A stretch of 22,179 nt of DNA from a virus, in IMG/VR virus record IMGVR_UViG_3300025889_001061, positions 1-22,179 of that record. The stretch is one strand, 5' to 3'. Position 1 is the first letter of the stretch; each line of letters opens with the position of its first letter. Under the pieces are notes generated by a model, which was not told the DNA's origin, made no database searches, and saw only the letters and a program-made list of their open reading frames with translations. This document shows, in pieces, positions 9,883 to 22,179 of the stretch. Made by a program: the position numbers and the translations under genes.

Positions 9883-10556
9883 CCGCTAAAGGCTCCGATG
9901 CCGGGGTAGCTGCCAAATGGCAGTTCAGCCGTAGCGCCAAAGTGCGCTTTGCAGTCAGTCAGTGTTTTGAGGCAGGTCGGCAGCCCGCCGCTGTAGCCAC
10001 ATTCGGTTGACTTGTATACCCACTGGCAGATGTTGGCGATGCATTGCCGTTTAGGTGCGCTGACGCCAGCAAGGTCAAAAGCGGCCGCAAGCTCAAACTC
10101 GACTACCTCGCGGTTTTCGATGGTTTTGCGATCGACGTAGTAGATCTCACGCGGAAACTCCGCCGTAGGGTCGGGACTGTAGGGGCTAGTGCCACCAGGG
10201 AAGTTTGCTGCGTCGATATAGCGTGCCAGCGTGCGGATGCGCGTAAATTTGGCACCCTCCAGTCCATCCGGCAGTGTCAACAGCAGGGCCGTGATGGTGC
10301 TGAGGATGTTGCTGACGCGGATCTTGGGACGTGGGAGCTGACCATTGCCGCTGTATTCAAACCCATCAGCCTCGACGGGAAAACGCTGATAGTTGTTGCC
10401 GTTCCACACCACCTCGCCATTGTTGTTGAGGCTGGTGCCAGCGTGGAAACGGTAGGTGTCGTTTGCGCCGTGTTGGGCAGTATTCAGCTCCAGCTCGAAC
10501 AGCTCGATGATCGCGCCGGGGGCTATCTCCTGTAGGGCTGAGACGGGTACGGTCAT
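9879..10556 (-). CDS. Minor tail protein, lambda gpL-like, probable Fe-S protein (225 aa)
   Basis: This tail tip component lies between M and K in lambda order. Residues 1-160 are beta-rich, with [20 protein letters not shown] and [10 protein letters not shown], characteristic of gpL. The C-terminal part holds cysteines at 172, 177, 186, 195 and 202 ([20 protein letters not shown], then [14 protein letters not shown]). Lambda gpL binds a [4Fe-4S] cluster through four C-terminal cysteines, and a similar set is present here; Cys177, 186, 195 and 202 are the most likely ligands. The start overlaps the M stop by 4 nt (ATGA). The cluster itself is inference from the family. Confidence 0.92.
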
Positions 10557-11254
10557 GGCTCGAACACCCTTCGCAGCGTCATTTGAAGATCGTTATTATT
10601 GTGATTATTATACGTTGTACTCCATTCCGCGCAAACGTACTTGCCTGTCGCAGCGGTCAGTGGGTCAGTCCATGTAAATGCAGTGCTGCCGCGTGCTTGA
10701 CGCAGGAATGTTCGAATCGCATCACGTTCTGCATTGGTGCGATTGCGAAACTGCAAATTCCAGGTTTCAGTTTGAGCGTTAAGGCCAAATTTTAAGCGTT
10801 TGGTATAACCCTCTCCAAATTGAAATGTTTGCGCATTTGATTGATAATTTTGATCGGCAGTGAAATCTGGGACCCAAGTAAAAGTGGTTGCGACGCCAGC
10901 AGGAGTAGCGATGTTTGTTTGTCCGGGCTCGTAACGAAGCTCGAATTCCGCCTCAACTGTTCTGTAATTGCACGACTCAAGCCGTGCATTCCAATTTGTA
11001 CAAATAAACTGCGCGGTTTCATTGAAAGGCGTCGTCCACTCAAACGTCTCAAGCCCATCGCGTGCTTTAAGAAACGCAATAATTCCCGCGATATCAGATG
11101 TACTGCGATTACTAAAACTAAGATTCCACGTATCGCGAAACGGATTGATGCCAAACGTAATGCGCTGCTCATAGGCACCAAGCCGCGTCTGACTTGCGCG
11201 CGGCTGGGAGCTTTCGCTTGCAGGTCGATCAGGTGTGTAAGTAAAAGTAGCCAT
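10553..11254 (-). CDS. Minor tail protein, lambda gpM-like, tandem duplicated (233 aa)
   Basis: The protein is two copies of the gpM domain in one chain. Copy 1 spans about residues 27-110 and copy 2 about 149-233. RITFGINPFRDTWNLSFSNR in copy 1 matches RLKFGLNAQTETWNLQFRNR in copy 2 at an offset of 122 residues, and FEWTTP matches FTWTDP at the same offset. The single-domain lambda protein is about half this size. gpM-type proteins form the ring that joins tail tip and tail tube, so a fused dimer could supply two ring units per chain. Copy 2 contains an Asn-rich loop (YNNHNNND) coded by an AT-rich stretch. The start overlaps the tape measure stop by 1 nt (TGATG). Confidence 0.9.
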   Translation of the reverse strand: MATFTYTPDRPASESSQPRASQTRLGAYEQRITFGINPFRDTWNLSFSNRSTSDIAGIIAFLKARDGLETFEWTTPFNETAQFICTNWNARLESCNYRTVEAEFELRYEPGQTNIATPAGVATTFTWVPDFTADQNYQSNAQTFQFGEGYTKRLKFGLNAQTETWNLQFRNRTNAERDAIRTFLRQARGSTAFTWTDPLTAATGKYVCAEWSTTYNNHNNNDLQMTLRRVFEP

Positions 11255-15702: not shown

Positions 15703-16042
15703 CCGAGCCCTTAGCCAATTCGCTTAATGCTGCGGCCTCCATTATCCGAAGACCTTCAAGCATCTCGCGGCGATTGTCCACATTGTAGAGGTCGAACAAC
15801 CCGCCAGCACACAGCAGCACGTCATATCGCAACCCCATATAGCCAGCCATTGTGGTCGTCCACTGCGTTTGCATGCGCAGGAACATCATCACAATATCCC
15901 AGTTCTCGTCCCATACTTCAAAATCAGCCGACTCCTCCTTCGGCTGCTCGGGGAGGACAATGCCAAATGCAGCAGCGTCCTCGCCCGATTTATCTTCTAC
16001 CCTCTTGCTGCCGCCTGCCCAGTAGACGGCAGCATCCTTTAG
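15695..16042 (-). CDS. T part of the G-T tail assembly chaperone fusion (115 residues, read by -1 frameshift)
   Basis: This frame has no convincing start of its own. Read from the slippery site it continues LKDAAVYWAGGSKRVEDKSG, then FEVWDENWDIVMMFLRMQTQ and ends LRIMEAAALSELAKGSDG. The FEVWxENW, TQW, GLRYD and MEAAAL motifs match the DUF1799-type domain found in the T part of lambda-like chaperones. In lambda, gpG coats the tape measure and the rarer gpGT, made by -1 frameshift, brings in tail tube subunits through its T domain. The fusion here would be 223 aa. Its stop overlaps the tape measure start by 8 nt. A GTG at 15890-15892 could start a shorter product but cuts into the domain. Confidence 0.85.
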   Translation of the reverse strand, partial: LKDAAVYWAGGSKRVEDKSGEDAAAFGIVLPEQPKEESADFEVWDENWDIVMMFLRMQTQWTTTMAGYMGLRYDVLLCAGGLFDLYNVDNRREMLEGLRIMEAAALSELAKGSDG

Positions 16043-16048
16043 TTTCCC
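16007..16048 (-). promoter_or_regulatory. Programmed -1 frameshift site: GGGAAAC slippery heptamer plus downstream stem-loop
   Basis: In the G frame the last codons read CAG GGA AAC TAA, so GGGAAAC at 16042-16048 has the X XXY YYZ form (G GGA AAC) and lies directly before the stop codon. A shift to -1 gives GGG AAA CTA and enters the T frame with no stop until 15695. The heptamer differs from the lambda G-T site (GGGAAAG) only in the last base. After an 8-nt spacer, GCTGCCG (16027-16033) pairs perfectly with CGGCAGC (16007-16013) around a 13-nt loop. This is the usual distance and kind of stimulator. Confidence 0.88.
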
Positions 16049-16365
16049 TGGCGGCCGCCTTCAAATGTCTCGGTATAAGCCTTCAGCACACCGCGAATCC
16101 AATAAGGATCATCGGTGAATTCGCGCATAGCCTCGATGGAGAACGGAACTTCCTTGCCGTCCTCATCAAGAATGCCCTCCCATCCAACCATGATCACTTT
16201 CAGAAGGTCAAGCTCGCCCTTTTCGCCAAGCTTCTGAAATTCCTTGCGGCCTACACGCTTAAATTTGGCGTCAAAGGTGGCCGTATCAAAAGTGCCGCCA
16301 TCAGCGGGCTCTTCGATCGATACAGGCCAGCTAAAAATCTTGACCTTTTTGCGGACAAATGCCAT
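16039..16365 (-). CDS. Tail assembly chaperone, lambda gpG-like (108 aa)
   Basis: The gene lies between tail tube and tape measure, the fixed place of G in lambda-like phages. The protein starts MAFVRKKVKIFSWPVSIEEP and has a strand-rich first half and a helical second half (RKEFQKLGEKGELDLLKVIM; MREFTDDPYWIRGVLKAY). It ends GGRQGN at the frameshift site. It is expected to bind the tape measure during tail assembly and to be absent from the virion. It is 24 nt shy of the preceding terminator's U-tract side and has no clear Shine-Dalgarno sequence in the 20 nt before ATG. It is also the N-terminal part of the G-T fusion ending at 15695. Confidence 0.9.
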   Translation of the reverse strand: MAFVRKKVKIFSWPVSIEEPADGGTFDTATFDAKFKRVGRKEFQKLGEKGELDLLKVIMVGWEGILDEDGKEVPFSIEAMREFTDDPYWIRGVLKAYTETFEGGRQGN

Positions 16366-19830: not shown

Positions 19831-22164
19831 TCAGGTGCCGTAGCAGAAGGCGCCGGGCTGCTTAACAGCCACATCCACATCCTGCAGAGCAATCACGCGG
19901 ACGGTACCGGCGGTAGCACCAGCGTAAGGATCAACAGTCAGATCCAGGCCGGACCACATGCCCATGATCATCATCGAGAAGTCGCCGAACAGAGCGTCGT
20001 TGTTCGCGAGCTGGTTGGAAACAACAGCGGGGTAGCCGTTGATCTCACCGTCCTCGAACACGAAACCAGCAGCCACAGCAGAAGCAGACTTGGCGGTCGA
20101 CTTCAGCGCGCCACGAGCAGCAGCGTTGATGATGTAACGCAGGCTGCCGGCATCAGCATTTGCAGAAGCCACATCGGTTTCCATGCCGATGTACTCCTCA
20201 AAAGTCCCGTAGGTGCTGATGGTCTGGCTGCCAATGCCGGTGGTGTTCACCAGACCGAGGGGCTGGTTGCTGGAGCCGGTGCCGTAGATAGCAGCGCGGT
20301 CGAGCTCGAGAGCAATCACGCGAGCAAGATCGTTGCGGATCATGCCTTCCACGTCGATCGAGGACTGCAGCAGCAGACGGCGGCTGTAGTCGACATAAGC
20401 ACCCACGGTCTTGGGCGTCATGTTCACCTGATCGATTGCCTGCTGGCTTTCGGTCGGCGAAGCGTTCTCACCCACCCAGTAGGCAGTAGCAGCAGAAGTC
20501 TGGCGGGGAATGCTGATGTTGCCCTGCAGGCCGGTCAGCATGGTCACGCCAGCCTGGGCCAGTGCCAGACGGTTGCGCAGCAGATCGATGAAGCTGCCGG
20601 ACAGCAGCTCATCAGCCACCAGGTTGCCGCCAGCAGTGGGGGTGCCCACCACCAGATCACGACGCAGCACTTCGTTGGGGATCACGATGCCGTTAGAAGC
20701 GCGCTCATACTTTTGAGCAGCAGCTTTGCCGACTTCAATTTCAAACTCGGCAGCCCGACGAGCAGAAGCATCGCTGGGGTTGGCGAGGTAGTTCAGTGCG
20801 CGAGCAAAGCTGAACGAACGGGTCTCTTTATCAGAGAGGCCAACATCGTTGGTGGTGATGTCAGCGGAGCGAATGACTTGTTCCACGGGTTGAGTGCCGA
20901 GTTTTTCAAGGACAGCAGCACGAGCTTCGTCGATAGTGCGACCACCGTCGATCAGCTCGCGAGCCAGGTCTTGCATCTGGTGCTTTTCGCCCAGTGCATT
21001 GATGGCGGCGATACGGGTACGCTCGGCCTCGACGGCCTCGGACCGGATCACCTCCAGATCTGGAGTGTTTTCCATTTCGGGTTCAGGTGTTGGTGATGCG
21101 GCGGGGGCCGCTTGAACAACGGTCTCATCAGTAAGAGACCTGCCGATTCCAATCGTAGGGTCAGCAGGTATAGAGACCACACTGACTTCGTAAGGCGACC
21201 ATCTAGTAGCCACGAAGTCATCTCCGCGCTCTTCCATCTTGTCGATCGAATAGCCGAAGCTGATGCCGCGCAAAATATTATCGCGGACATCATCAAGCAC
21301 TTCCTGCGCAAACTTGTTGCGCGAGAAGCGCACCTTTACATAGCCGCGCTTCTTGATGCCATCAACCCAGGCACGCTCGACAACGCCAACCACACGATCG
21401 GGATCGTGATTGAACAGCAGAGGAGCGCCATCATTCAGCCGGCTGAGATCAGCAGCATCCATCTCGTGGCTCAGCACCTCGTTGCCGAAGTACCGCATCA
21501 CGGGATACTCAGAGCTGAAGGGGAACTCAAAGCTCCGCTCCTCTTCAAGCGCGCGGAATGAGGTTACCTCAGAGCGTTGAAATTTACCGCCCTCAGTAGC
21601 GCGAATCGGATCGATCTTGGTCAGAGTGCTGAAGCGATGCCCAACCATCGTCTCAGTAGGCTCACCATCGCGATAGATCCGAATCAGTGCAGCAGGATCC
21701 TCCTCGCTGGCATCAATGCTGAATTCAGTGCCAGGCACACCCAAAGTGCCCTCGCGCATCACATGCTCAATCCGGCCACGAGCGCGACCGCCTGAACTAT
21801 TCCACGAAACGAAATCCCCCTCTTTAAGCGCATCAGGCGCTGCGCGTTTTTCGGTCACTGTTTCGACCTCAATTTCATCCACTTTAGAACGCTCACCTGT
21901 TGCCTCTTCAAATTCAAGCGGCTCATAATCACGCTCACGCAGCCATGCGCGAGCTTCGGCAGCAGTGAAATCAGCAAGCTTGAAGCGAATTGCCTGCAGC
22001 TCAGCGCCGCTTTCGCCTTCCTTGATTCCAAAAATGAAATCAACACCTTTCCTGCCTGCGTTATTACGACGCCGGAAACGGTCGTACTGCCCCGGATCAC
22101 GCAGCCTTGCTGCATGCTCATTCGGATACGGCCGACCTTCCTCGACCTCAGGCCCTTCGTTCAT
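19831..22164 (-). CDS. Prohead protease-major capsid protein fusion, HK97 type (777 aa or longer)
   Basis: One polyprotein holds five parts. Residues 1-85: a conserved segment (NEHAARLRDPGQYDRFRR). Residues 112-184: a Tudor-like domain (GDFVSWNSSGGRARGRIEHV) seen with phage proteases. Residues 195-342: an S78-type prohead protease with candidate His253 (LLFNHDPDRVVG) and Ser302 (RGISFGYSI). Residues 365-430: a charged helix like a delta/scaffold domain. Residues 450-777: HK97-fold capsid (GNISIPRQTSAATAYWVGEN; IYGTGSSNQPLGLVN). Cleavage should free the capsid domain, probably between residues 430 and 510. The frame stays open to base 22179, so the true start may lie outside; ATG at 22162-22164 is only the first visible one. 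Confidence 0.93.
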   Translation of the reverse strand: MNEGPEVEEGRPYPNEHAARLRDPGQYDRFRRRNNAGRKGVDFIFGIKEGESGAELQAIRFKLADFTAAEARAWLRERDYEPLEFEEATGERSKVDEIEVETVTEKRAAPDALKEGDFVSWNSSGGRARGRIEHVMREGTLGVPGTEFSIDASEEDPAALIRIYRDGEPTETMVGHRFSTLTKIDPIRATEGGKFQRSEVTSFRALEEERSFEFPFSSEYPVMRYFGNEVLSHEMDAADLSRLNDGAPLLFNHDPDRVVGVVERAWVDGIKKRGYVKVRFSRNKFAQEVLDDVRDNILRGISFGYSIDKMEERGDDFVATRWSPYEVSVVSIPADPTIGIGRSLTDETVVQAAPAASPTPEPEMENTPDLEVIRSEAVEAERTRIAAINALGEKHQMQDLARELIDGGRTIDEARAAVLEKLGTQPVEQVIRSADITTNDVGLSDKETRSFSFARALNYLANPSDASARRAAEFEIEVGKAAAQKYERASNGIVIPNEVLRRDLVVGTPTAGGNLVADELLSGSFIDLLRNRLALAQAGVTMLTGLQGNISIPRQTSAATAYWVGENASPTESQQAIDQVNMTPKTVGAYVDYSRRLLLQSSIDVEGMIRNDLARVIALELDRAAIYGTGSSNQPLGLVNTTGIGSQTISTYGTFEEYIGMETDVASANADAGSLRYIINAAARGALKSTAKSASAVAAGFVFEDGEINGYPAVVSNQLANNDALFGDFSMMIMGMWSGLDLTVDPYAGATAGTVRVIALQDVDVAVKQPGAFCYGT

Positions 22165-22179
22165 CAGACGCTCTGGAAT

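Follow-up and report, generated by a model that had tools for sequence, protein, structure and literature searches.

The stretch of DNA analyzed here, which we refer to as the window, is an entire IMG/VR virus record of 22,179 bases, and the record stops inside a fusion gene. On the minus strand, positions 19831-22179 form a single open frame that does not end before the window edge (Table 1). The fused frame is genuine; its product combines a Tudor-like domain and an S78 prohead protease with a helical delta-like segment and an HK97 capsid protein. A preliminary description of this locus had placed the protease, a Tudor-like domain, and the capsid protein in one frame, with the Tudor-like domain (residues 112-184) ahead of the protease, and the Pfam matches bear out both points: all lie over their cut-offs and follow the order Tudor-like, S78 protease, capsid. 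Hva1_TUDOR (PF11160) matches residues 116-162 (6.3e-07; 29.8 bits against a gathering cut-off of 24.1), Peptidase_S78 (PF04586) matches residues 220-337 (1.7e-09; 38.5 bits against a gathering score of 21), and Phage_capsid (PF05065) matches residues 512-776 (1.4e-44, over the curated cut-off). The capsid portion is also spanned by a match to TIGR01554, and PHROG 617 (major head protein) aligns residues 206-777 of the protein with positions 22-622 of its 626-position profile (2.7e-162).

Table 1. Features of the fused gene and of the proposed internal start (positions in the window; residues counted from the window edge).
Feature	Position	Strand	Basis
IPERL, last residues of the upstream Cys4 HiPIP-like module; gene continues past the window	22165..22179	-	
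EHAARLRDP module, residues ~7-92, predicted alpha/beta domain	21889..22146	-	conserved in alignment A3, modelled
Tudor-like SH3-type barrel (predicted), residues ~112-184	21613..21831	-	PF11160 and modelled barrel
S78 prohead protease domain, residues ~207-343	21136..21546	-	PF04586, invariant columns
Putative hairpin GCGGCCCCCGCCGC, 36 to 23 nt upstream of the M364 ATG	21098..21111	-	RNAalifold
ATG of M364 (MENTPDL), proposed internal start of delta-capsid	21073..21075	-	conserved ATG
Stretch LEVIRSEA at codons +6 to +13 after M364, where synonymous variability in the aligned gene is lowest	21034..21057	-	rank 1
Delta-like segment, residues 364-511, helical by eye	20632..21075	-	alignment A1
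HK97-fold major capsid domain, residues 512-777 and stop	19831..20631	-	PF05065, 8gta_A

The Tudor-like region is predicted to form a barrel, and the top VIA-align rows for it include many Tudor domains, with middling Z values of 6-7. The assignment is thus supported by both Pfam and the modelled barrel. In the protease domain, His253 and Ser302, which we take to be the catalytic residues, are invariant together with H233 across 13 aligned proteins (alignment A1). For wider comparisons we gathered 349 loci and counted a locus as usable if it has the protease motif followed in one frame by 300 residues or more; among the matches listed, the protease His and Ser patterns are present in 334 of the 339 usable loci. 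The 10 loci that were dropped lack the protease motif or the 300 following residues and include the split relatives L167, L168, and L170, a Helicobacter prophage (L166), and Pseudomonas phage PPpW-3 (L169). The 339 loci come from the best matches listed rather than from a census, and some represent the same contig fetched twice.

The preliminary description had also pointed to an extra conserved N-terminal segment at residues 1-85. This segment proves to lie in the interior of a longer gene, of which it is one module: the frame is still open where the window ends and IPERLM matches the interior of longer proteins, so the residue counted as the first is itself internal. Relatives have the sequence CKFWIIPERLM, with about 190-200 residues preceding that Met, and the full protein of close relatives has about 970 residues, in a frame that measures 977-983 residues from stop to stop (for example L095, with 977, L096, and L015). 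Upstream of the window edge the relatives carry two further modules, WGGD and then Cys4. The WGGD module opens their frame and corresponds to PHROG 2859. The Cys4 module of L095 resembles HiPIP (PF01355) at E=0.015 and 16.1 bits, below the gathering cut-off of 22. A model of the WGGD and Cys4 modules has a mean pLDDT of 56, and that of the EHAARLRDP module, which lies within the window, has block means of 85-94 across most of its length. The VIA-align rows cover mainly the Tudor-like part and little of the EHAARLRDP module, and a Foldseek search of the PDB with the whole model gave no match at E<=0.001. Among the matches listed, 8 phage records contain the EHAARLRDP module; the matched proteins all carry the annotation major capsid or head protein, and in one record the protein is split in two. 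In the annotation of Roseobacter phage CRP-823 (L008, 1289-4217), the fused gene appears as a pair of overlapping capsid genes with the break inside the EHAARLRDP module; the very similar Roseobacter phage CRP-821 has one frame.

Ahead of a constant protease-capsid core, the WGGD, Cys4, EHAARLRDP, and Tudor-like modules vary. Scored by simple patterns, and with contigs cut at their edge included, the 339 usable loci among the matches listed show no detected module in 102 cases, WHT in 59, WT in 56, and WCHT in 30, besides other combinations. Some of these modules also occur as separate genes. In the Actinomycetia phage DSL-LC01, WGGD and Cys4 each match a separate gene that lies upstream of the capsid gene and is annotated as capsid maturation protease; Limnohabitans phage DC31 has two separate hypothetical genes upstream of its capsid gene, one matching WGGD and the other the Tudor-like domain. 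WGGD also matches the portal protein of Haloarcula tailed virus 3. The placement of these modules in genes upstream of the capsid gene and the match in a portal protein suggest that the N-terminal modules may share a role in head assembly. The genes next upstream of the DSL-LC01 capsid gene (L350, 1052-8785) comprise three with a capsid maturation protease annotation, the two with WGGD and Cys4 matches among them, and one annotated as a high potential iron-sulfur protein.

An assembly error had been named as a way in which the fusion might be spurious. Relatives whose best segment is up to 96% identical to the window read through the fusion in one frame as well, and the fused frame recurs in independent contigs and in the named phages S-CBS1, S-CBS3, R4C, and VP882. 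An assembly or sequencing artefact is therefore ruled out by independent genomes, and we give that explanation practically no weight. The arrangement is also not unusual: 112 phage records match the fusion protein, with one place covering at least 80% of the query in 9 of them among the matches listed, and protease-capsid fusions are already catalogued as NCBIfam NF045541 ("prohead protease/major capsid protein fusion protein"), PHROG 617, and PHROG 4523 (major head and protease protein), all with a domain order identical to that of the window protein. Since the window protein scores 178 bits against NF045541, with its best stretch at residues 207-474, and misses the curated cut-off of 525 bits, it falls outside that curated model. 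In HK97, the gp4 protease and the gp5 capsid protein are separate genes. The S78 protease, the delta segment, and the HK97 fold are common to HK97 and the window, whereas two genes in HK97 correspond to one frame here. The contrast with HK97 drawn in the preliminary description thus holds as far as the single frame goes, but not as something special, given that such fusion families have been catalogued and published. The protease-capsid fusion itself is already known, and the new part is the probable nested start described below.

Among named phages, gp4 of the Synechococcus phages S-CBS1 and S-CBS3 shares the protease-delta-capsid core with the window protein (50.1% and 48.0% identity over the covered part) and, like the window's relatives, carries EHAARLRDP and WGGD modules at its N-terminus. 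We looked for a Tudor-like domain in these two proteins and found none; both are annotated as major capsid or head protein only. The 629-aa fusion gp006 of Dinoroseobacter phage vB_DshS-R4C is homologous from the protease to the C-terminus and starts shortly ahead of the protease, without N-terminal modules. In other lineages than that of the window, a protease domain is fused to the capsid protein in thaumarchaeal proviruses, where the fused protease of NCAV2-Pro1 is called a typical caudoviral prohead protease (PMC6563490), and a protease-capsid fusion with a different gene order occurs in the RcGTA-like prophages LC2/LC3 (PMC11409702); the available parts of these two papers mention no internal start. 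Nor did we find any report of an internal start in a protease-capsid fusion in the literature searched, in which subscription journals are thinly covered. One IMG/VR relative (L308, 2859-5457) has the fusion in two same-frame pieces of 336 and 529 residues, parted by a single stop at ~3867, which by its coordinates lies near the protease domain; the capsid part is open.

Two relatives with split genes show where a separate capsid gene begins. The protease stop of MT835917 shares bases with the capsid ATG (TAATGA), and in phi39:1 the protease and capsid genes overlap by one base in the same manner. Both capsid genes begin at the place that matches the junction ATG of the fusions (M364 in the window), and both capsid proteins begin with a charged, helix-like stretch that by eye resembles the segment after M364. 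Judged by these sequences, the fused genes look like the same protease/capsid pair minus the stop, with the capsid start retained. We considered Marinobacter phage AS1 as a further split relative and rejected it; it has a separate peptidase gene whose sequence is free of WGGD and looks different.

An in-frame ATG lies within 60 codons of the protease end or motif in all 339 usable loci among the matches listed, which represent 302 distinct DNA stretches, and the junction ATG is present in all representatives when the loci are clustered at 97, 90, 80, 70, 60, and 50%. We divided the loci into two groups, A and B, by 55% identity to the window or S-CBS3, group B being made up of lineages distant from the window; L079 and L076 were placed in group B despite a cyanophage-like look by eye. 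Relative to other 60-codon windows of the same genes, presence of the ATG is in excess of expectation in group B (null 0.78; p=0.002), and in group A, with 9 representatives including the window, it does not reach significance (null 0.75; p=0.065). The window's clade comprises 155 sequences, 141 of them unique, and among the latter M364 shows 99% conservation. The 14 other Met columns of that clade range from 19% to 100%, and two of them, in the capsid domain, equal M364 (0.99 and 1.00).

We next consider the Shine-Dalgarno signal, calculated as the energy of pairing to the 16S anti-Shine-Dalgarno upstream of ATGs in 34 representatives obtained by clustering at 70%, with matched 60-codon windows elsewhere in the same genes as the null. 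In group B (25 representatives), the best junction energy averages -5.92 kcal versus -2.59 +/- 0.45 for the null, a value that none of 20,000 draws reached. The same test is negative in group A (-3.08 versus -2.51; p=0.21; 9 representatives, window included). In 12 named phages, the junction ATG has a mean energy of -6.63, with 75% at or below -5; the corresponding figures are -5.12 and 53% for other annotated starts (n=85) and -4.33 and 31% for fusion starts (n=13). The junction value is unchanged whether we take the best of one or two ATGs or one ATG per phage picked by eye. Judged by these energies, the short product should in many cases be made no less well than the fusion in these phages. 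The junction ATG of R4C gp006 has a strong Shine-Dalgarno (-9.5), whereas M364 of the window has none (0.0 kcal); among other ORF starts in the window, 10 of 18 reach -5. The upstream fusion start has a strong Shine-Dalgarno (-10.3) in 5 of 8 relatives examined, so the long form should be well made there. The lack of a Shine-Dalgarno at M364, together with its strength at the fusion start of relatives, is the main counter-evidence to an internal start in what can be read from the genes.

Synonymous sites provide a second line of evidence. We scored synonymous variability in 8-codon windows normalized by amino acid. In the window's clade, codons +6 to +13 rank 1 of 757 for a longer stretch and 1 of 577 at three clustering levels, and codons -15 to -8 of M364 form the next separate trough. 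The lowest synonymous window of the L036 clade (rank 1 of 573) includes the ATG itself, and that at +4 in the S-CBS3 clade ranks 2 of 591, behind one at the 3' end of the gene; these three clades are cyanophage-type subgroups of group A. The Roseobacter-phage clade has its lowest windows in other parts of the gene; the best ATG-touching window ranks 104 of 755, and windows ~16 codons upstream of the ATG are among the six lowest. Raw variability without normalization in the 8 codons directly upstream of M364 is unremarkable (25th percentile).

Ahead of the ATG, where codons -15 to -8 form the trough mentioned above, RNAalifold predicts a 5-pair GCGGC/GCCGC hairpin; in 51 selected sequences 96.1% of its cells are paired, and its covariation score is 0.197 versus 0.072 after shuffling. 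The selection arises because only 51 of 55 junction regions were aligned (alignment A2, in which L038 is out of register); L049, L056, L057, and L274, whose linkers could not be aligned by eye, were left out, so the hairpin counts refer to a selected set, and no hairpin of such form was seen in these four. Four of the five pairs follow largely from the Ala codons that the peptide requires, which leaves the wobble-wobble pair as the only free one. Its compensatory UA type occurs in 7 sequences and may go back to one event. The two flanks of the ATG could also form a long-range helix, with 78% of cells paired in the 51 selected sequences. No known RNA family matches 20900-21300 up to E=1. We regard the putative RNA element at the junction as a lead. 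Tentatively, the capsid precursor of the cyanophage-type clade may start without a Shine-Dalgarno by means of the GC hairpin ~20-35 nt upstream and the constrained codons +6 to +13 (GGAGGTGATCCGG in the window), with relatives of other hosts using a plain Shine-Dalgarno, so that one conserved start would have two initiation devices; the long-range flank pairing would hold the AUG in a loop. We regard this scheme as possible, though the odds are against it. On the plus strand, opposite the gene, two overlapping terminator-like matches (21043-21065; shuffle mean 0.4) fall inside the constrained stretch after M364.

The boundary of the mature capsid protein can be estimated from a solved structure. 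The R4C capsid chain in the PDB (8gta_A) matches the window protein over residues 512-773 (E=8.8e-56). It comprises residues 362-629 of the 629-aa gp006, and its start aligns with window residue 512; the delta-like segment 364-511 is thus absent from the solved chain, bearing in mind that the chain may have been shortened on deposition to what was modelled. The R4C paper gives 415 copies of the gp006 capsid protein per capsid, and its accessible part mentions neither a fused protease nor cleavage.

The locus encodes a protease-major capsid protein fusion of the known kind, and based on these data we consider it fairly probable that the gene is nested and gives both delta-capsid and the protease-bearing fusion. 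In the scheme that we infer for the use of the ATG, the product ratio, the cleavage, and the role of the RNA hairpin, a start far upstream, outside the window, would give a long precursor with the N-terminal modules, S78 protease, delta-like scaffold segment, and capsid domain. Initiation at the M364 ATG would give a shorter, protease-free precursor of the delta-like segment and capsid domain. Many or most of the capsid subunits would come from the short form. The long form would carry the protease into the prohead, where the protease would remove the N-terminal modules and the delta segment to leave a mature subunit starting near residue 512. The preliminary description had raised M364 as a possible internal start, and the idea gains from the conserved ATG, the group B Shine-Dalgarno, and the group A synonymous constraint but loses from the absent Shine-Dalgarno at M364 in the window. 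For the group B lineages, the evidence from their genes for internal initiation is good but indirect. Internal initiation probably also occurs in the window's phage, where conservation and synonymous constraint point to it without a Shine-Dalgarno. A nested arrangement of this type is known from phage lambda, in which C/Nu3 is a nested protease-scaffold gene with an in-frame internal start that gives a protease-free product; here, the nested product would include the capsid protein itself, and the protease family differs.

A rival reading is a single polyprotein, in which the full-length fusion is the sole product, made several hundred times per head, and every capsid subunit is released by proteolysis, the junction Met and its codons being kept, for example, as a cleavage site or recombination hot spot. 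The protease and capsid protein do share one frame in the 339 usable loci (selected for that), 16 named phages included, the fusion start of five close relatives has the strong Shine-Dalgarno that M364 lacks, and the Ala-rich AAPAAS just upstream of M364 could, as a guess, be a protease site. However, the junction Shine-Dalgarno of group B is at or above the level of ordinary gene starts, and synonymous sites, which are invisible to proteolysis, reach their strongest constraint within the gene at the ATG or next to it in two subgroups of group A, and their second strongest there in another. We therefore think it unlikely that the full-length fusion is the only product. Another way to a short product would be a nested transcript, with a promoter or RNA processing site at the junction that gives a short delta-capsid mRNA with M364 as its first AUG; herpesviruses have nested protease and scaffold genes that resemble this reading. 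In the window's clade, the conserved GC hairpin 23-36 nt upstream, the strong nucleotide constraint on both sides of the ATG, and the lack of a Shine-Dalgarno at M364 would all fit, but a simple scan of 20900-21400 for sigma-70-like promoters found none, and we judge a nested transcript improbable. If the junction ATG is used, such fusions would be nested genes and not single-product polyproteins. The earlier expectation that every capsid subunit brings its own protease would then not hold, the matter of how such phages avoid one protease per capsid subunit would be settled, and the annotation and expression of such capsid genes would change.

Analysis of the window outside the fusion gene gave several additional observations. 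At the far end of the tail genes, the minus-strand ORF at 216-1403 contains repeated YSFVGGGQ/YSVVCGGQ-like motifs, and its protein has no PHROG match at 0.001. The minus-strand ORF at 10553-11254 seemingly holds two tandem copies of a minor tail protein domain, with PHROG 14 matching two stretches. Lastly, a GGGAAAC heptamer (16042-16048, minus strand) immediately precedes, in the proper phase, the stop codon of the tail assembly chaperone ORF (16039-16365), and the -1 frame past it is open to ~15695, near the tape measure start, an arrangement that bears a likeness to the G-GT frameshift of phage lambda.
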